The notes under the pieces are model-generated. The model worked only from the letters and a program-made list of their open reading frames with translations. It was not told where the DNA came from and searched no databases. From Rhodobacteraceae bacterium EhC02 (GTDB taxonomy: Bacteria; Pseudomonadota; Alphaproteobacteria; Rhodobacterales; Rhodobacteraceae), in NCBI GenBank assembly GCA_001650895.1, contig LXYH01000001.1, positions 1 through 64,000 on the forward strand: 64,000 bases of DNA, in the 5' to 3' direction. Of the stretch, positions 48,854 to 59,559 are shown piece after piece. Position 1 is the first letter of the stretch. Each line of letters starts with the position of its first letter. The translations under genes were made by a program, and so were the position numbers.

Positions 48854-50224
48854 TCAGTAGCTGTAGTCGGAATAGATCCGCGACAGATCCCCGTTCCATT
48901 CGCCCTGGTACTTCTCGAGCAGTTCATCGGCCGGTGTCTTGCCGGTTTCGATGCTTTCCTTGAGTGCATTGAGGAAATGGGTTTCGTCGGGCACAAGCCC
49001 CCCCGCACCGGCACGCGCGCGCGCCTTGAGGCCTGCCTCGGACAGGGCCAGCACCTCGCGCGCCAGATCGTGCATATTGATGTCGCCGACACGGGCCTGC
49101 AGCCCGTCCACGCTGGCGGCAACGCGCAGCGCCTCGCGGGTTTCGGCATCCCAGCCCTTGGCGATGTCCCAGGCCGCGTCCAGCGCCGACTGGTCATACA
49201 TCAGCCCGACCCAGAAAGCGGGCAGCGCGCAAAGCCTGCGCCAGGGGCCGCCATCGGCGCCGCGCATTTCCATGTATTTCTTGATCCGCGCCTCGGGGAA
49301 GGCGGTGGTCAGGTGATCCGCCCAATCGCTGAGGGTCGGGGTTTCGCCCGGCAGGGCAGGCAGCTTGCCCGCCATGAAGTCACGGAAGGACATGCCCAGC
49401 GCGTCGATGTACTTGCCATCGCGATAGACGAAATACATCGGCACATCGAGCGCGTATTCCGCATAGCGTTCAAACCCGAACCCCTCCTCGAAGACGAAGG
49501 GCAGCATGCCGGTGCGCGAGGCATCCAGATCGCGCCAGATCCGGCTGCGCCAGCTTTTGTGGCCGTTGGGCTTGCCCTCGAAGAAGGGCGAGTTGGCGAA
49601 GAGCGCGGTCGCGACGGGCTGCAGCGCGATGGCCACGCGGAGTTTCTTGACCATGTCCGGTTCCGAGGCGAAATCGAGGTTCACCTGCACCGTGCAGGTC
49701 CGGTACATCATGGATTTGCCCATGGTCCCGACCCGGTCCATGTAGGAGGTCATCAGCTTGTAGCGCCCCTTGGGCATCTGCGGCATCTGATCATGCGTCC
49801 AGATCGGGGCGGCGCCCAGACCGATAAAGCCGACACCGACCTTGTCGGCCACATCCTTGACCTCGCGCAGGTGCTGGTTCACCTCGTCGCAGGTCTCGTG
49901 GATGGTGTCGAGTGCGGCACCGGACAGTTCCAGCTGCCCCCCCGGTTCCAGGCTGACATTGGCGCCGTCCTTGACAAGGCCGATCAGCTTGCCCGCCTCT
50001 TCGACAGGCGCCCAGCCATGGGCGTCGCGCAGCCCTTCCAGCACAGCCCGCACCGAGCGCGGCCCCTCGTAGGGGATCGGCAGCAGGCTGTCCTTGCAGT
50101 AGCCGAACTTTTCATGCTCGGTCCCGATGCGCCAATCCGCCTTGGGCTTGCACCCGGAGGCGAGGTATTCGGCCAGTTGGGAAGGATGTTTGATCGGCCC
50201 GCCGCCGGACTGAGGGATGGACAT
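48854..50224 (-). CDS. gshA: Glutamate-cysteine ligase (plant/alphaproteobacterial type)
   Basis: 456-residue enzyme for the first step of glutathione synthesis. WRIGTEHEKFGY at the N-terminus (Glu-binding), VSLEPGGQLELSGA and TCTVQVNLDFAS are the conserved blocks. Its length and sequence resemble the GshA form shared by alphaproteobacteria and plants, unlike E. coli GshA. ATG 50224 (MSIPQSGGGPIKHP) is the conserved start; the longer upstream frame overlaps the next gene. Ends convergently with plsY; a dispersed motif lies between. Confidence 0.95.
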   Translation of the reverse strand: MSIPQSGGGPIKHPSQLAEYLASGCKPKADWRIGTEHEKFGYCKDSLLPIPYEGPRSVRAVLEGLRDAHGWAPVEEAGKLIGLVKDGANVSLEPGGQLELSGAALDTIHETCDEVNQHLREVKDVADKVGVGFIGLGAAPIWTHDQMPQMPKGRYKLMTSYMDRVGTMGKSMMYRTCTVQVNLDFASEPDMVKKLRVAIALQPVATALFANSPFFEGKPNGHKSWRSRIWRDLDASRTGMLPFVFEEGFGFERYAEYALDVPMYFVYRDGKYIDALGMSFRDFMAGKLPALPGETPTLSDWADHLTTAFPEARIKKYMEMRGADGGPWRRLCALPAFWVGLMYDQSALDAAWDIAKGWDAETREALRVAASVDGLQARVGDINMHDLAREVLALSEAGLKARARAGAGGLVPDETHFLNALKESIETGKTPADELLEKYQGEWNGDLSRIYSDYSY

Positions 50225-50277
50225 GCTGGGCTCTCCGAATTCTCTTGCGCGTCTGTTCAGTCGGCAGGAGTGCCGCG

Positions 50278-50805
50278 TCAACGCGGAAGTGTCAATCGCG
50301 CAAGCGGCGCATCGCGCTGCCAGATCACGACGATGTGCGCCCCGTGCGGGCGCATCTGCGTCAGCAGCCGTTCCGTGCTGAGACCCGGCAGGGATGCAAA
50401 GACATCGAACAGCGCGGCGGCATTCTGTGCGGTCAAAGGAATTTCGAGCAGGGGCTGGCCCTGTTGGTGCAAGCGCCAATGGACCGGTTTCGCCCCATGG
50501 TCGATGTCCAGCCGCACCAGTTCCGACAGGGCCACGACGCCCCCGGTCAGCGGTCCGAAATAGGCCACCTGCCCTTCGGTGATGCTGACCACGCCGGGGC
50601 CGTCCTGCCCCGTGGCAAAACGGATCCGCTGCAGCCCCGTGAAGGCCAACGCAAGGCCCGCCGCCAGAACCGCCCAGCCGATCCAGGACAGCACGCCGAA
50701 ACCGGTGACGATCCACCACAGGCCGATGGCCGCGACAGCCGTGCCACCCAGCACGCCGCGCCAGCGGCGCAACAGGGCCAGGGCCTCGGGGCGCAGGAAA
50801 CTCAT
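50278..50805 (-). CDS. Small membrane protein of unknown function downstream of rsmE
   Basis: 175 residues. Two TM segments near 20-60 (VLGGTAVAAIGLWWIVTG, VLSWIGWAVLAAGLALAFTG) and a soluble tail (residues 65-175) of beta-rich character: VVSITEGQVAYFGPLTGGVVALSELVRLDID and LLEIPLTAQNAAALFDVFASLPG. ATG 50805 overlaps the rsmE stop (ATGA). gshA begins 53 nt after its stop on the same strand. Not a recognised domain; conserved position next to rsmE in this order is suspected only. Confidence 0.72.
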   Translation of the reverse strand: MSFLRPEALALLRRWRGVLGGTAVAAIGLWWIVTGFGVLSWIGWAVLAAGLALAFTGLQRIRFATGQDGPGVVSITEGQVAYFGPLTGGVVALSELVRLDIDHGAKPVHWRLHQQGQPLLEIPLTAQNAAALFDVFASLPGLSTERLLTQMRPHGAHIVVIWQRDAPLARLTLPR

Positions 50806-51566
50806 GCCGGCAGGTCCCAATCACCCAGCCGCATCTGCCACAGCGTCAGCGCAGCGACTGCCGCCGTGTCCGCGCGCAGGATGCGGGGGCCAAGGCTGAC
50901 CGGGTGGCTGAAGGACAGCCCATGCAGACGGGTGCGTTCGGCCGGGGAAAAGCCGCCCTCGGGTCCGATCAGGATCGCCCAGGGTTGCGGGGGCTGGCCG
51001 GACGTGCGCACCGGCAGGGCCGGGGCGGGCTCGGTGGCGGCACCGCCATCGGCAAACCCCTCGTCGCAGAACATCAGCTGCCGCCCCGCAGGCCAGTCGG
51101 CCAGCAGACGGTCCAGCCTCACAAGATCCGCCACTTCGGGGACATGGGTGCCGCCGCATTGTTCCGCCGCCTCGACCGCATGGGCCTGCAGGCGATCCTG
51201 CCGGATCCGTTCGGCATTGGTGAAATCGGTCTGCACCGGCACGATCCGGGCCGCCCCCATTTCGGCGGCCTTTTCCACGATGAAATCGGTGCGCGCTTTC
51301 TTTATCGGGGCAAACAGGAGCCACAGGTCGGGCGGCATCCGCAAGGGACGCGTCTGCGCCTCGCAGAGCAGCATCCCGCCGCGCTTGCCCGCCTCGGTCA
51401 CGCGGGCCAGCCATTCGCCGTCGCGCCCGTTGAACAGCAGCACCCCGGCCCCTTCCGACAGCCGCATGACCCCGAACAGGTAATGCGCCTTGTCGCGGTC
51501 CAGAGGAACGGTTTGCCCCGCACCCAGCGGTTGGTCTACATAGAGGCGGATTTTCGCATCAGTCAT
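50802..51566 (-). CDS. rsmE: 16S rRNA (uracil-1498-N3)-methyltransferase
   Basis: 254-residue SPOUT methyltransferase. N-terminal PUA-like domain (IRLYVDQPLGAGQTVPLDRDKAHYLFGVMRL), then IKKARTDFIVEKAAEMGAARIVPVQTDFTN, and the knot region IGPEGGFSPAERTRL and SLGPRILRADTAAVAAL. These are the RsmE blocks. ATG 51566 is only 12 bp from the divergent ubiA ATG. The long upstream frame is antisense to ubiA and rejected. Confidence 0.94.
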   Translation of the reverse strand: MTDAKIRLYVDQPLGAGQTVPLDRDKAHYLFGVMRLSEGAGVLLFNGRDGEWLARVTEAGKRGGMLLCEAQTRPLRMPPDLWLLFAPIKKARTDFIVEKAAEMGAARIVPVQTDFTNAERIRQDRLQAHAVEAAEQCGGTHVPEVADLVRLDRLLADWPAGRQLMFCDEGFADGGAATEPAPALPVRTSGQPPQPWAILIGPEGGFSPAERTRLHGLSFSHPVSLGPRILRADTAAVAALTLWQMRLGDWDLPA

Positions 51567-54885: not shown

Positions 54886-56154
54886 TCAGTCTGCCGGGAC
54901 GATCAGGGATTCACCCTCGAACGCGCCCAGAAGGTTCGCCACATCGGCCGCGATCTGCGCGGGCGTGGCGTCCGTGAAAACCTCTGCCAGCAAATCGGCA
55001 ATGTCCTGACCGCTGATCGGCTCTTCCAGCAGTGACCAGATGGCCCGCGCCACGGGATTGAGGTGGAAGTAGCTGTATTCGGTCGCGTGCCACAGGAACA
55101 GATCATCCTGCACCGCGCGCACCGCCACATGCGGGCTGCGCTTGTAGCCCTGCGCCAGATCCGCAGGAGGGCGCACAACGGCAGCGATCTCGGCGGGAAG
55201 GGGCGGTGCGACAGGCGCGCCCAGTCGCGCCAGCTGGTCCGTGGCAAAGGCGCGGCGCAGCAGGGCCACCGCCTCTTCAAGATCGGAATAGGCCAGCTTG
55301 AGGCAGAGAACCCCCTCGACCATGCCCGTGACCTGGTCGAAATGTTCGGTTCCCTCGCCGGGGGCAGAGATGTTCTGCCGCACAAGATGCTGGACCGCTT
55401 CGGTCGGTTCCATGCGGTGAAGTTGCGCCGGAATATCCGTGCCGCGCGCCAGCACGATGAAGGCCCCGACCGCGGCCCGCGTGCCATGCGGCGCGATGTT
55501 CGGGCCGCAAAGATAGCCGTAGCGCCGATCGGCTGGCCCCATATGGGCCGCCACATGGGCGCGAAAATCATCCGTGACGCTGTCGGGCAGCGGCAGGCGC
55601 AGACGGGGCGCCAGCCCCAGGCCAAAGGCCAGCCCATCCTCCAGAACCGGCAGGATGTCATCGCAGAACACGGTCATGTCCGGCTCGGCGGTCAGCCGCG
55701 CGATCAGCGTGCTTTTGCCTGCCCGCGCGGGGCCGGTCAGCACGATCAGATGTCCGTTGATCTGGACCGCCCCGCAATGCAGGCCCAGACAGCCGCGATG
55801 CTGGTTGCAGAACGCCTGCGAGATATCGGCCACGACACCACAGGCCGCACTGGCCGCCATCAACCCTTTAAGCGGCGTGCTGAGCCAGGGCGAATGCAGA
55901 TCGAAACGCGCATTCCTGCCGCGGACCCTGGACACATGGTCGGGCAGGTCGGCGGCATTGTCCGCGAAAGACATCGCGACCGCATCAGGCGCCCAGCCCA
56001 CCATCAGGCCGTCGAGGGCTTCAAGAACACCTTGCGCATTTTCCAGGACAACGGCGCCGCGCAAGCCGGGATATGTCAGGTGCTGCACGACGGAAGGAGG
56101 CGCGCGGTCATCGCGCGCCTCCGCATTGACCTGCGCACTATCGCAGGCCGGCAT
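54886..56154 (-). CDS. HPr-kinase-like P-loop protein fused to a PqqD-like domain
   Basis: 422 residues. The N-terminal ~125 residues are unassigned. An HprK-like P-loop GPARAGKST (141-149) is followed by the paired acids CDD (D165-D166), where HPr kinases carry their catalytic DD. The middle segment (residues 170-330) has no clear match. The C-terminal PqqD-like domain (about 337-420: SPHVAVRAVQDDLFLWHATEYSYFHLNPVARAIWSLLEEPISGQDIADLLAEVF) is of the peptide-chaperone type used in RiPP and HPr-rel-A-type systems. The ATG is 1 nt after the Ser-rich gene's stop. Plausible activity: phosphorylation of a peptide presented by the PqqD part; inferred. Confidence 0.78.
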   Translation of the reverse strand: MPACDSAQVNAEARDDRAPPSVVQHLTYPGLRGAVVLENAQGVLEALDGLMVGWAPDAVAMSFADNAADLPDHVSRVRGRNARFDLHSPWLSTPLKGLMAASAACGVVADISQAFCNQHRGCLGLHCGAVQINGHLIVLTGPARAGKSTLIARLTAEPDMTVFCDDILPVLEDGLAFGLGLAPRLRLPLPDSVTDDFRAHVAAHMGPADRRYGYLCGPNIAPHGTRAAVGAFIVLARGTDIPAQLHRMEPTEAVQHLVRQNISAPGEGTEHFDQVTGMVEGVLCLKLAYSDLEEAVALLRRAFATDQLARLGAPVAPPLPAEIAAVVRPPADLAQGYKRSPHVAVRAVQDDLFLWHATEYSYFHLNPVARAIWSLLEEPISGQDIADLLAEVFTDATPAQIAADVANLLGAFEGESLIVPAD

Positions 56155-56155
56155 A

Positions 56156-56524
56156 TCAGCGGCGACCCGCGCCCGAAGGACCGGACGGACCCGAGGAGCT
56201 CGAAGAGCTGGACGAGCTGGACGAGCTTGAGGAGCTCGAAGGACCGGACGGACCCGACGGACCCGAAGGGCCGGACGGACCAGAGGCACCGGATGCGCCC
56301 GAAGAACCGGATCCGCCGGGGCCGGATCCACCACCGGAGCCACCGCCCGATCCACCGCCAGAACCGCCTGCCCCACCGCCGGAGCCTCCTCCCGAGCCGC
56401 CCGATGCATGGGCGGCGCCCAGGTGCATCATCACGGGTGCGACATAGAGCACGCCCGAGGCAAGGCCGAGGCGCGCCAGCAATGCGCGGCGCGAAACGCT
56501 TGTCTTGGAATTCTGTTCAGACAT
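56156..56524 (-). CDS. Exported Gly/Ser/Pro-rich small protein with a poly-Ser tract
   Basis: 122 residues. The N-terminus MSEQNSKTSVSRRALLARLG...AHA is a Tat-like signal (SRR at 11-13), cleaved probably at AHA|SGG (residue 40). Then Gly/Ser repeats (GGGS, GASGAS), five GPS-type triplets, a run of 16 Ser (96-111) and the end GPSGPSGAGRR. The serines use mixed codons (TCG, AGC, TCC, TCA, TCT). Its N-terminus matches that of the subtilase gene downstream. ATG 56524 follows AAAGGAAT. Candidate substrate of the P-loop/PqqD protein that is 1 nt away. Confidence 0.8.
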   Translation of the reverse strand: MSEQNSKTSVSRRALLARLGLASGVLYVAPVMMHLGAAHASGGSGGGSGGGAGGSGGGSGGGSGGGSGPGGSGSSGASGASGPSGPSGPSGPSGPSSSSSSSSSSSSSSSSGPSGPSGAGRR

Positions 56525-56597
56525 GTTTTTATTCCTTTCCACTCATGATGCCGCAACACAAAGCGGGCATGCAGTGAAAACGGCGCAGCGGGATGAT

Positions 56598-58010
56598 CTA
56601 TTCCCCGCTGACCGAAAAAACTTCGCTGGCCTCGCCCTTGCAATACCCCGGCGCCGAAATCAGGCCGTTTCCATAAACCGGGTCATAGCCGGCCTTGCCC
56701 AGATCCGTCGCGCAGTCGATCAGATGCTTGATGCTGCGTTGCAACGGGACTTTCGGCTCTCGCATGCGCTGTACCGCCAGAGCAGCCGTCACGAATGGGG
56801 CCGCATAGGATGTTCCGGATTTGAGCCGACCGCCTGAAATCGAGGCGGCTGTCCAGATCCCGACACCTGGCGCCGAAAGCGTGATGTAGGGACCCTGGTT
56901 TGCCTGTCGATAGATGCGTTGCCGACTGTCCACCGCGGTGACCGCGATCACATGAGGCCAAGCGGCGGGATAGGCCGGTTTGGCCCCGGCCCCACCATTG
57001 CCCGCTGCGGCAACAAGGGCCACCGACCGCGACGCGGCCCGCGCCGTCACCTCGCGCAGGACGGCGTTTTCCGGCCCGGAGAAGCTGAGGTTGATGACGC
57101 TGACACCTTCTGCCAGCAGCAGGTCCACTGCGGTGGCAAGAGAAAAGGCATCGGCCTGATCGCCGCCACGCCCGCGATGGAATGCTTCCACCGCGACCAA
57201 CCGGGCATTGGGCAGAAGTCCCGGCGTGCGGCTGTCCATGCGCCCCAGCAGAAGGGCGGCAATCGCCGTACCATGTTCGCGCCCCGAGGCGTTCCGGTCA
57301 CCGATGTCAGCTTGAAAGACCTTGAGTTTCTGTCCCCGTAGCGCCTCGTGACCGACATTGATGCCGGTGTCGATCATCCCGATCTTGGGGGCGAAGGCAC
57401 TGGGCCACCCCGACCAGCTGATCATCTCATGGGCCGCGCATGATCCATCCCGGCACATGAAGTCATCAGTTGTGTAAAGATGGTTCGCATCCGCCGTGGA
57501 TCCGGGGATGCGGTTCGTCAGCTCGGCCCGGGCCTGCGCCGCGCTGCGGCCTGCCGGCAATTCAAGCCGGACCAGACGCCGGTTGAGCGTGCGGTTGTTG
57601 CGCGATCCCAGCACGCGGTATCCCAATGCCTCGATCGCGGCCGTGCCCTGCCCCGCTGGCAACGCCAAAAGCATTTCCTCGCGACCGCCGCCATCGCCCT
57701 CTTCGTTGATGGACTGAGAGACCCCGGACGGTCCACTGGTGCCGGATGCACCGCTTGCACCGCCACTGGCGCCACCGCTTGCCCCGCCGCTTCCGCCACC
57801 GCTTCCGCCGCCACCGCTGCCGCCGCCGCCACTTCCGCCGCCGCCACCACCGTCGCCGCCGTCACCGCCCGACGCATGCGCCATGCCCAATGCCGTCAGC
57901 GCCGGTGTCGTGTAGGCGATGGTCCCTGCCAGACCGATCCGCCGCAGCAAGGCGCGCCGCGACAAGTCTGCACCCTGCTTGGCCCCGGCCACGGTTTTCT
58001 TTTCGGGCAT
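56598..58010 (-). CDS. Exported subtilisin-like (S8) serine protease with Gly/Ser linker
   Basis: 470 residues. N-terminal signal with SRR at 17-19 (LSRRALLRRIGLAG) cleaved near AHA|SGG; a Gly/Ser linker (48-96); an I9-like prodomain (110-165); and the S8 catalytic domain with D214 (IGMIDTGI), H246 (EHGTAIAALL), N338 (AAAGN) and S401 (SGTSYAAP), all four intact. ATG 58010 with AAAGGAG upstream. Cys pair C186/C191 and C433/C457 may form disulfides. First of three leftward genes, divergent from the sigma factor. Confidence 0.92.
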   Translation of the reverse strand: MPEKKTVAGAKQGADLSRRALLRRIGLAGTIAYTTPALTALGMAHASGGDGGDGGGGGGSGGGGSGGGGSGGGSGGASGGASGGASGASGTSGPSGVSQSINEEGDGGGREEMLLALPAGQGTAAIEALGYRVLGSRNNRTLNRRLVRLELPAGRSAAQARAELTNRIPGSTADANHLYTTDDFMCRDGSCAAHEMISWSGWPSAFAPKIGMIDTGINVGHEALRGQKLKVFQADIGDRNASGREHGTAIAALLLGRMDSRTPGLLPNARLVAVEAFHRGRGGDQADAFSLATAVDLLLAEGVSVINLSFSGPENAVLREVTARAASRSVALVAAAGNGGAGAKPAYPAAWPHVIAVTAVDSRQRIYRQANQGPYITLSAPGVGIWTAASISGGRLKSGTSYAAPFVTAALAVQRMREPKVPLQRSIKHLIDCATDLGKAGYDPVYGNGLISAPGYCKGEASEVFSVSGE

Positions 58011-58285
58011 CACTCATGCTCCTTTGACAAACGGACTGGCACCTTGCACCACGGATCCGGTTTCCCGCCTACCCTGCCTGACCATGGCCCCCAAAAAACA
58101 AGAGCCGCCCTGCAAGCCGTCGGGTATTACGACAATGACACGGAACAACAACGCTGGCGATCAGCCTGCTATTCCCGCTCCCTCGCAATTATTTGTCCCT
58201 TTGGGGAATAAAGTCACCACCCTGCCGTTTTCTTTCCGATAGCTTTTTTTAACAGTCGCCGCTGGTACCAAGGGGAAACGCGTTC
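58011..58285. promoter_or_regulatory. Divergent control region, protease vs sigma factor
   Basis: 275 bp between the protease ATG and the sigma-factor GTG, with no gene. It contains an imperfect dyad TTATT-N2-TCCC-N3-GGGGAATAA (58189-58211) and a T-run near 58245. No clear ECF-type -35/-10 pair could be assigned on either strand, although the sigma factor probably drives at least the leftward operon. Confidence 0.35.
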
Positions 58286-58825
58286 GTGTCCGAAGCAATC
58301 CGCAACGAGATGATACAGATGTTGCCGCGCCTGCGCGCCTTCGGGCGCAGTCTGACGGGGGTGCAGGATCAGGCCGACGACCTGGTTCAGCAGACCGTGG
58401 AGAAGGCCTTGCGCAATATCGACAGCTATCAGCCGGGCACACGGCTGGACAGCTGGATGTTCCGGATCATGCGAAACGCGTGGATCGACGGACATCGCGC
58501 GCGCCGCAGTACGGTGACGCTGGATGACGTGGACGCCGTCCAGCCGCTGATCGGTGAGGACGGGCGCGACGTGACCGAGAACCGCCTCTATCTCGCGCAG
58601 GTCTGCGCGGCGATGGATGCCCTGCCGGAAGATCAGCGCGCCGTGCTGATGCTGGTCTGCGTCGAGGGCCTGCGCTACCGCGAGGTGGCCGAGGCGCTTG
58701 GCATTCCCGAGGGCACGGTCATGAGCCGTCTGTCACGGGGCCGCATCGCGCTGGCACAGGCGTTGAACATGACGACCCATCCAGATGGCCAGACGGCCGG
58801 ACACATCCAGGGGAAAACCCGATGA
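58286..58825 (+). CDS. ECF-type RNA polymerase sigma factor
   Basis: 179 residues. Region 2 (PRLRAFGRSLTGVQDQADDLVQQTVEKALRNIDSYQPGTRLDSWMFRIMRNAWIDGHRARR) and region 4 (LPEDQRAVLMLVCVEGLRYREVAEALGIPEGTVMSRLSRGR) are standard ECF. Start is GTG 58286 with AAGGGGAAA 7 nt upstream. Its stop overlaps the anti-sigma ATG (ATGA). Expected to activate its own operon and the divergent protease operon in response to an envelope signal. Confidence 0.95.
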   Translation: MSEAIRNEMIQMLPRLRAFGRSLTGVQDQADDLVQQTVEKALRNIDSYQPGTRLDSWMFRIMRNAWIDGHRARRSTVTLDDVDAVQPLIGEDGRDVTENRLYLAQVCAAMDALPEDQRAVLMLVCVEGLRYREVAEALGIPEGTVMSRLSRGRIALAQALNMTTHPDGQTAGHIQGKTR

Positions 58826-59559
58826 CACAGAAACCAGAATCGAATGTGAGCGATGACATGCTGATGGCCCTTGCAGATGGCGAATTGACCAGCCCCGATG
58901 CCAGCAAACTGCTTGCGCAGATCAAGGCCAGCCCGGAGTTGAGCGCACGCTATGCGATGTTCACCGGAACGGCCGCCGCCTTGCGCGACGCTTTGGACCC
59001 CGGCCCGGTTCCGGATCACCTGATCTCGACCGTGCTGACGGCACCCATGGGTGGCGCGCCGGAACAGCCGCAGGATGCCACGGTCATACCGCTGCGCGCA
59101 AAGGGCAAAGCCACGCCGACATGGTCTGTCTGGCCGATGGCGCTGGCCGCGTCACTTGCCCTGGCCATGGGGATCGGCGGCTTTCTGACCGGGCGCAGCA
59201 TGACCCCCGTTCCCGCAGGGCTGGAAACCGCGGCCATCGCGCTGACCGGCACAACGACCGGCGGCAGCACGATGCTGGCCGATGGCAGCACGGCCCGCGT
59301 GCTTGGCAGCTTCGACACCGATATCGGCCTGTGCCGCCTGATCGCCGTGGATGGGGCGGATGGCCACATGGACCGCGCCGTGCTCTGCCGGTCGGAGCCC
59401 GATGTCTGGCGCACGGCGCTTGCTGTCTCGGAAGGGTCGTCGAACATGTTCCTGCCCGCATCAGACATGGCCGTCGGCCTGATCGACGACTTCCTGAACG
59501 GGATCGGAGCCAACGCGGCGATGAACCCCGAGGACGAGGCCCGCGCCCTGTCGCGGTGA
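58822..59559 (+). CDS. Membrane-bound anti-sigma factor
   Basis: 245 residues. Cytoplasmic N-terminal anti-sigma part (residues 1-100, SDDMLMALADGELTSPDASKLLAQIKASPELSARYAMFTG), one TM at about 104-124 (WPMALAASLALAMGIGGFLTG) and a periplasmic C-terminal domain with C171 and C189. There is no HxxxCxxC zinc motif, so it is not the ChrR/RsrA zinc type. The exported domain could be a sensor, possibly cleaved by the divergent S8 protease; inference. Confidence 0.88.
   Translation: MTQKPESNVSDDMLMALADGELTSPDASKLLAQIKASPELSARYAMFTGTAAALRDALDPGPVPDHLISTVLTAPMGGAPEQPQDATVIPLRAKGKATPTWSVWPMALAASLALAMGIGGFLTGRSMTPVPAGLETAAIALTGTTTGGSTMLADGSTARVLGSFDTDIGLCRLIAVDGADGHMDRAVLCRSEPDVWRTALAVSEGSSNMFLPASDMAVGLIDDFLNGIGANAAMNPEDEARALSR

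Follow-up and report, generated by a model that had tools for sequence, protein, structure and literature searches.

What is made by a locus in which a kinase resembling HPr kinase, fused to a PqqD-like domain, lies beside a Ser-rich exported protein, a subtilisin-like protease, and a sigma/anti-sigma pair? Five such genes are found at 54886-59559 of the window, which is the whole stretch of 64,000 nucleotides analyzed here (contig LXYH01000001.1 of Rhodobacteraceae bacterium EhC02, positions 1 to 64,000). Judged from sequence, they probably (roughly 0.7) encode a system controlled by an extracytoplasmic function (ECF) sigma factor that makes exported repeat proteins modified on Ser or Thr. 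The strongest mechanistic evidence is the pairing of an invariant YxxP motif in the leaders of these proteins with a conserved, predicted YxxP pocket in the RiPP recognition element (RRE) of the fused kinase (RiPP, ribosomally synthesized and post-translationally modified peptide). The genes are:

54886..56154, reverse strand: predicted HprK/PEPCK-fold kinase fused to a C-terminal RRE (PqqD), 422 aa (Pfam, AlphaFold2, Foldseek, conservation)
56156..56524, reverse strand: Ser-rich client (precursor), 122 aa, with a Tat-type (twin-arginine translocation) leader followed by SGG, SGP, and a poly-Ser tail
56598..58013, reverse strand: S8 (subtilisin-like) protease, 471 aa, with a leader and a Gly/Ser linker
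58286..58825, forward strand: ECF sigma factor, 179 aa, GTG start, sigma-70 regions 2 and 4
58822..59559, forward strand: anti-sigma factor, 245 aa, one probable membrane segment, assigned from its position after the sigma gene and a match to NF052375 (antisigma, 1.7e-11) below the curated cut-off

Pfam matches were obtained for PqqD at the C-terminus of the fusion (PF05402, 7.9e-12), Peptidase_S8 (1.6e-29), and sigma-70 regions 2 and 4. When the coordinates were re-read from the sequence, the five genes proved real and lay where a first-pass annotation had placed them, and its smaller observations also held: the sigma and anti-sigma genes share an ATGA overlap (58822-58825), and a single nucleotide separates the stop codon of the Ser-rich gene from the ATG of the kinase.

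Conservation of the kinase and precursor genes

The conserved unit consists of two genes, the kinase-RRE fusion and the small protein encoded directly upstream of it. A contig scan with a 7-row subset of the kinase alignment gave 41 loci, mostly from Rhodobacteraceae, with others from Limnobacter, Oxalobacter, Desulfovibrio, Mesorhizobium, and Oceanibaculum. The small protein was directly upstream of the fused kinase in 53 of 56 loci (49 of 52 without duplicates). In one exception (L093) the leader is present on the S8 protease only, and the other two are kinase-only genes of Neomegalonema (L094 5477-6427 and L095 5423-6382, both forward strand), whose products (316 and 319 aa) leave no room for an RRE and which have no leader-bearing precursor upstream. 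Other Alphaproteobacteria encode the kinase and the RRE in two neighboring genes, which in some cases share a few bases, and their precursor is of the same type. In another class of the phylum, presumed to be Gammaproteobacteria, four genomes of a single family have (YSRPx)n precursors. The unit is present in Alpha-, Beta-, and (presumably) Gammaproteobacteria and in Desulfovibrionaceae.

The co-occurrence of these genes, which the first-pass annotation had made a test of its proposal, was borne out by the recurrence of such loci in other genomes. The same divergent order, with the ECF and anti-sigma genes facing the genes for the S8 protease, small protein, and PqqD protein, was found on plasmids of Paracoccus marcusii and Shinella, where it is annotated piecemeal. 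Because the arrangement recurs on these plasmids and on many chromosomes, it goes beyond chance. Among 199 genomes of the family, the leader was detected in 19 of the 19 that have the kinase and in 1 of the 180 that do not; several of these genomes contributed leaders to the profile, a caveat that leaves the negatives unaffected. The single genome with a leader and no kinase (G197) is 64% complete, and its precursor lies about 280 bases from a contig end. No strong leader match was found in the remaining 179 of the 199 genomes. The kinases and small proteins of many proteobacteria are annotated merely as "PqqD family protein" and "hypothetical protein".

The kinase and its recognition domain

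The two parts of the fusion protein examined most closely are:

55708..55734, reverse strand: P-loop GPARAGKST, residues 141-149, with A145, G146, and K147 invariant in 35 homologs
54889..55149, reverse strand: RRE (PqqD-like) domain, about residues 336-422, from profile matches to lasso B1 proteins and LppB

The P-loop and the D165-D166 pair had been read correctly from the start. H126, the P-loop Lys K147, D165, and D166 are kept in 35 of 35 homologs, and H126, the P-loop, and D165-D166 sit where we would expect the corresponding His, P-loop, and Asp-Asp of HprK to be. The AlphaFold2 model of the fusion (pLDDT 89.1, pTM 0.82) was compared with known structures using Foldseek: the kinase part matched phosphoenolpyruvate carboxykinases (PEPCKs; E = 2.5e-8, probability 1.00), and the RRE part matched TbiB1 with a TM-score of 0.85 on the TbiB1 length. 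PEPCK and HPr kinase are members of a single superfamily. By its modeled fold, P-loop, and acidic catalytic residues the fusion thus belongs to the HprK/PEPCK kinase superfamily, and the HprK-like fold combined with an RRE that had been predicted for it was recovered. What did not carry over was closeness to a named family, the kinase domain being no more than distantly related to HprK_rel_A. Its TIGR04352 score was 44.9 bits, and the tested homologs reached at most 60.1 bits against a cut-off of 200; neither the fusion nor any tested homolog reached the cut-off of any named HprK group. Membership in TIGR04352/TIGR04353, with kinases at 22-60 bits, was rejected.

Profile searches with the RRE matched TbiB1 (2.5e-10), LppB (8.8e-7), PbaB1 (2.5e-6), and TfuB1 (5.3e-6). 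In the HMMER alignment, N366 (kept in 33 of 35 homologs) and D404 (34 of 35) correspond to the leader-binding residues N33 and D70 of LppB. In the LppB crystal structures, N33 fixes the kink that the leader makes at Pro, and the leader Tyr is held by D70 (PMC13381572). The modeled winged-helix PqqD/B1 fold and the retention of these pocket residues place the C-terminal domain among the RREs.

We infer that the fusion acts as a kinase on Ser. A quite unlikely alternative is that phosphorylation only begins another chemistry, either elimination to dehydroalanine or addition of a group to the phosphate, so that phosphoserine is not the end product. HprK-like kinases in clusters for linear polyphosphorylated peptides (LPPs) and for paeninodin adjoin a nucleotidyltransferase presumed to attach a group to the phosphate (PMC13381572), but no lyase, cyclase, radical SAM enzyme, or transferase was seen beside the kinase-precursor pair in the window or in the listed neighborhoods.

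A twin-arginine leader that carries the recognition motif

Two leaders are encoded in the window:

56402..56497, reverse strand: leader of the small protein, VSRRALLARLGLASGVLYVAPVMMHLGAAHAS, with twin Arg, YxxP, and AxA (leader profile 2.4e-14)
57870..57965, reverse strand: leader of the S8 protease, LSRRALLRRIGLAGTIAYTTPALTALGMAHAS (leader profile 6.1e-13)

An alignment of 36 leaders was almost free of gaps, with R3, R4, Y18, P21, and A31 invariant. The twin Arg, hydrophobic stretch, and AxA are the sequence features of a Tat signal, and the YxxP lies inside the hydrophobic segment, followed one position further on by a hydrophobic residue. Lasso RREs recognize [Y/W]xxPx[L/V/I/A/F/Y], and YxxP is also bound by LPP RREs (PMC13381572). 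The earlier picture of export was revised accordingly: the signal is of the Tat type and has the RRE motif within it, and export of the clients is predicted to depend on TatC.

Ser/Thr-repeat tails

The tail of the small protein contains a run of 16 Ser:

56192..56239, reverse strand: 16 consecutive Ser, encoded by five different codons (TCG, TCC, AGC, TCT, TCA)

The use of five codons indicates that the run is not a simple nucleotide repeat and that Ser itself is apparently kept; nucleotide slippage as the sole cause of the poly-Ser is unlikely for the same reason. The poly-Ser run pointed out in the first-pass annotation turned out to be one variant of a Ser/Thr-repeat tail, and it was rejected as the defining feature because other tails are SR, SA, SE, TR, or SG repeats. 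Examples include SGGGSGG (window), PSRPSRPSR, PTRPTRP, SAASAAS, PSEPSEP, and YSRYSRYSR. The composition of the tails differs, as in (SGG)n, (SGP)n, (PSR)n, (SAA)n, and (PSE)n, whereas Ser (or Thr) is constant, usually at every third residue.

For a quantitative comparison, tails were chosen by their leader alone, with no Ser criterion. Ser made up at least 10% of the first 60 residues in all 46 distinct tails, while Gly, Arg, Pro, and Ala each vanished in some of them. Ser/Thr spacing showed a strong 3-residue period (z = 27 in comparison with shuffles, 46 tails), with a best spacing of lag 3 in 28 of the 46 tails and of lag 6 in 9.

Probable clients of the kinase

A search of the window's own genome with the leader profile found three genes at 52-56 bits and nothing else above 13.4 bits. 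Two were those of the small protein and the S8 protease, whose leader and Ser repeats, of the same kind as those of the small protein, had been overlooked in the first-pass annotation. The third is an orphan on another contig, away from the kinase:

G000 contig C35:30772-31104 (L136 6773-7105), reverse strand: orphan client, found with the leader profile

The orphan was left out of profile building and still has the same leader and a SYSRPSYSRPSFSRPSR tail. Since the S8 protease and the orphan share this leader and have Ser repeats as well, the number of clients of the kinase is probably three.

The S8 protease, in which D215, H247, and S402 fit a catalytic triad, is probably a client in view of its leader; its site of action may lie beyond the cytoplasm. 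It had been proposed to process the poly-Ser protein after export, a role that was not established, because the protease is itself leader-bearing and is often non-adjacent. Adjacency of the genes in the window and their common promoter motif would fit such processing, but the protease looks like a client, many loci have no adjacent S8 gene, and in one genome (G026) the S8 and ECF genes are at a separate locus, which together make this role very improbable. The S8 protease was also rejected as an obligatory adjacent partner, since the loci without an adjacent S8 include those of Betaproteobacteria and Desulfovibrionaceae.

Two further protein types were seen at some loci. One is a second client with a leader, a Ser-rich segment, and a C-terminal PepSY-like domain:

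L016 956-1459, reverse strand: PepSY-like second client (leader and Ser-rich segment)
L017 878-1435, reverse strand: PepSY-like second client (leader and Ser-rich segment)
L011 2736-3158, forward strand: PepSY-like second client (leader and Ser-rich segment)

The other is a second type of S8 protease, which has a Sec-like signal and a poly-Asp stretch and is without the RR/YxxP leader:

L075 7984-9399, forward strand: second-type S8
L087 425-1843, forward strand: second-type S8, sigma motif upstream
L091 2215-3585, forward strand: second-type S8, sigma motif upstream

Probable regulation by a common promoter motif

A dyad search of 12 sigma/S8 intergenic regions identified GGAATA-N16-CGTT in 11 of them, counting either strand. 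Promoter-like sites of this form lie before three of the genes at the locus, and one precedes the tatABC operon elsewhere in the genome:

58205..58229, forward strand: GGAATA-N15-CGTT before the sigma gene, 57 bases from the start codon
58150..58175, reverse strand: GGAATA-N16-CGTT before the S8 gene (motif search)
56579..56604, reverse strand: GGAATA-N16-CGTT before the small protein and kinase genes, 55 bases from the start
G000 contig C3:83439-83464 (L141 1501-1526), forward strand: GGAATA-N16-CGTT 159 bases upstream of tatA in the tatABC operon

Across the wider set of loci, the two boxes are 15 or 16 bases apart, and the motif was found upstream of genes for sigma, S8, and the precursor, in most cases at a distance of 30-60 bases from the start. 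Sites outside the discovery set are numerous, for example those at precursor promoters and at L071, L075, L080, L082, L087, L088, L091, L099, and L100. The exact GGAATA form occurred 50 times in the loci, compared with 0.65 expected from shuffles. The sigma control that had been suggested for the window, and the linkage of the protease to the other genes, are supported. In G026, the S8, ECF, and anti-sigma genes are at a separate locus from the precursor and kinase and the motif precedes the sigma gene, an arrangement that points to a functional link and not simply to proximity, although the motif was missing in front of the precursor of this genome (L079).

Only six sites with a spacing of N16-17 were found in the window's own genome, including two at the locus and the one before tatA. 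All three congeners found to have both the kinase and tatA keep the tatA site (one as GGAATT). A kinase-less congener (79% complete) has no such site, and neither do the other genera that were examined. A further match in the window, GGAATA-N17-CGTT at 48869-48895 (forward strand), is antisense within an apparent glutamate-cysteine ligase gene (48854-50824, reverse strand) and is probably due to chance.

The site at tatABC also bears on the possibility that the fusion serves chiefly as a Tat proofreading chaperone, in which the RRE masks the signal, the P-loop domain times its release with the use of ATP, and the Ser repeats are unmodified flexible tails. The position of the RRE motif within the Tat-type hydrophobic segment and the presence of a folded enzyme, the S8 protease, among the clients would fit such a chaperone as well. 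However, the full HprK catalytic set is conserved, and Ser alone is kept in the tails while Gly, Arg, Pro, and Ala vary, when a pure chaperone would need no Ser. This possibility is considered unlikely, and modification of the repeats is the reading developed below.

Proposed mechanism

In the proposed scheme, the RRE of the fusion would bind the YxxP and the next hydrophobic residue of the client leader in the cytoplasm and pass the repeat tail on to the HprK-type kinase joined to it, where Ser/Thr would be phosphorylated. Binding by the RRE may keep the signal from TatBC until modification is complete, after which the modified client would be exported by Tat and its leader cut after AxA. The sigma factor would stay bound to the anti-sigma factor until freed by an envelope signal and would then induce the genes for sigma, the protease, the precursor and kinase, and, in this genus, tatABC. 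The product may be, as a guess, a phosphoserine-rich envelope or extracellular polymer, for example metal-binding or structural. There is a precedent in LppK, an HprK-like kinase with a separate RRE that phosphorylates Ser of a linear peptide (PMC13381572), which makes RRE-associated phosphorylation of linear peptides on Ser plausible. Of the model put forward in the first-pass annotation, the RRE-guided kinase and the exported Ser-rich protein are thus supported, and phosphorylation stands as a prediction from sequence.

Several observations weigh against this scheme. Phosphorylation of the clients is a step that we infer. LppK acts on one Ser and rejects Thr (PMC13381572), while some tails here are TRP repeats. 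The tails of some split-gene relatives (L045, L059) are poor in Ser, indicating that the Ser-repeat rule is not absolute, and the low-complexity tails may in part be a product of GC-rich repeat growth. No sigma motif was found near the orphan client, and the motif at tatA is limited to the genus. To these may be added the overlap between the leader profile and the surveyed genomes described above. Finally, a precursor of Oxalobacter (L090 4936-5289, forward strand) has kept YxxP and the Ser repeats and lost the twin Arg, so export there may bypass Tat.

On balance it seems rather probable that these loci represent an undescribed, widespread class of Tat-exported, RiPP-like phosphoproteins. Their leader would serve as a Tat signal and at the same time be recognized by the RRE, so that this one segment controls modification ahead of export; the core would be a polymer of Ser/Thr repeats, and a dedicated ECF sigma factor would, in some species, couple the system to tatABC.

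Comparison with known systems

The gene set, found in several proteobacterial classes, has apparently not been described so far. A literature search, with most subscription journals outside its reach, found no paper joining these features; PMC12826043 proved unrelated. If the scheme is true, a role could be assigned to the sparsely annotated kinases and small proteins, RRE-guided modification would reach beyond small natural products to a protease and to exported repeat proteins, and the loci would offer a directly testable case of a signal peptide gating modification before Tat export. A bacterial route to dense phosphoserine polymers would also be suggested.

Compared with HprK, the HPr kinase/phosphorylase, the fusion shares the fold superfamily, the P-loop, the upstream His, and the Asp-Asp, but it has a fused RRE and no link to HPr was seen, and the similarity is marginal (3tqf, E = 0.038; 1jb1, E = 0.47). 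The HPr-rel-A system (TIGR04352 HprK_rel_A with TIGR04353 PqqD_rel_X) likewise pairs an HprK-related kinase with a PqqD-family chaperone, but differs in that the RRE here is fused, the neighbors are others, and the scores are under the cut-off. Paeninodin-type lasso clusters have an HprK-like kinase, and the nearest relatives of the RRE are the lasso B1 proteins TbiB1, PbaB1, and TfuB1; however, the proteins here are long repeat proteins rather than short knotted peptides, and no match to an Asn-synthetase-like macrolactam cyclase or a B2 peptidase was found among the five proteins.

The closest described system is that of the LPPs of Bacillota (PMC13381572, 2026), whose clusters encode LppA, LppK, LppB, and LppS and in which the addition of multiple phosphates on Ser has been shown for LppK. 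Both systems have an HprK-like kinase with an RRE, a linear precursor, a YxxP leader motif, and no macrocyclase. In LPP clusters the kinase and RRE are separate, whereas here they are usually fused. The leader here is a twin-Arg leader that has YxxP without the rest of the YxxPxVLxHQxIxFETxxS consensus, and the Ser/Thr-repeat tail, ECF control, S8 protease, and proteobacterial hosts are further differences. The archaeal-type SpI peptidase, nucleotidyltransferase, and MsbA-like exporter of LPP clusters were not found among the five genes or annotated near the plasmid homologs; the wider genome was not searched. Because the full leader consensus and the SpI, transferase, and exporter features are missing from this set, the system, which would work much as the LPPs do, is set apart from them. 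It is filed here as a distinct form of the RRE-guided peptide kinases, one that, if confirmed, would join the chemistry of peptide natural products to the Tat export pathway.

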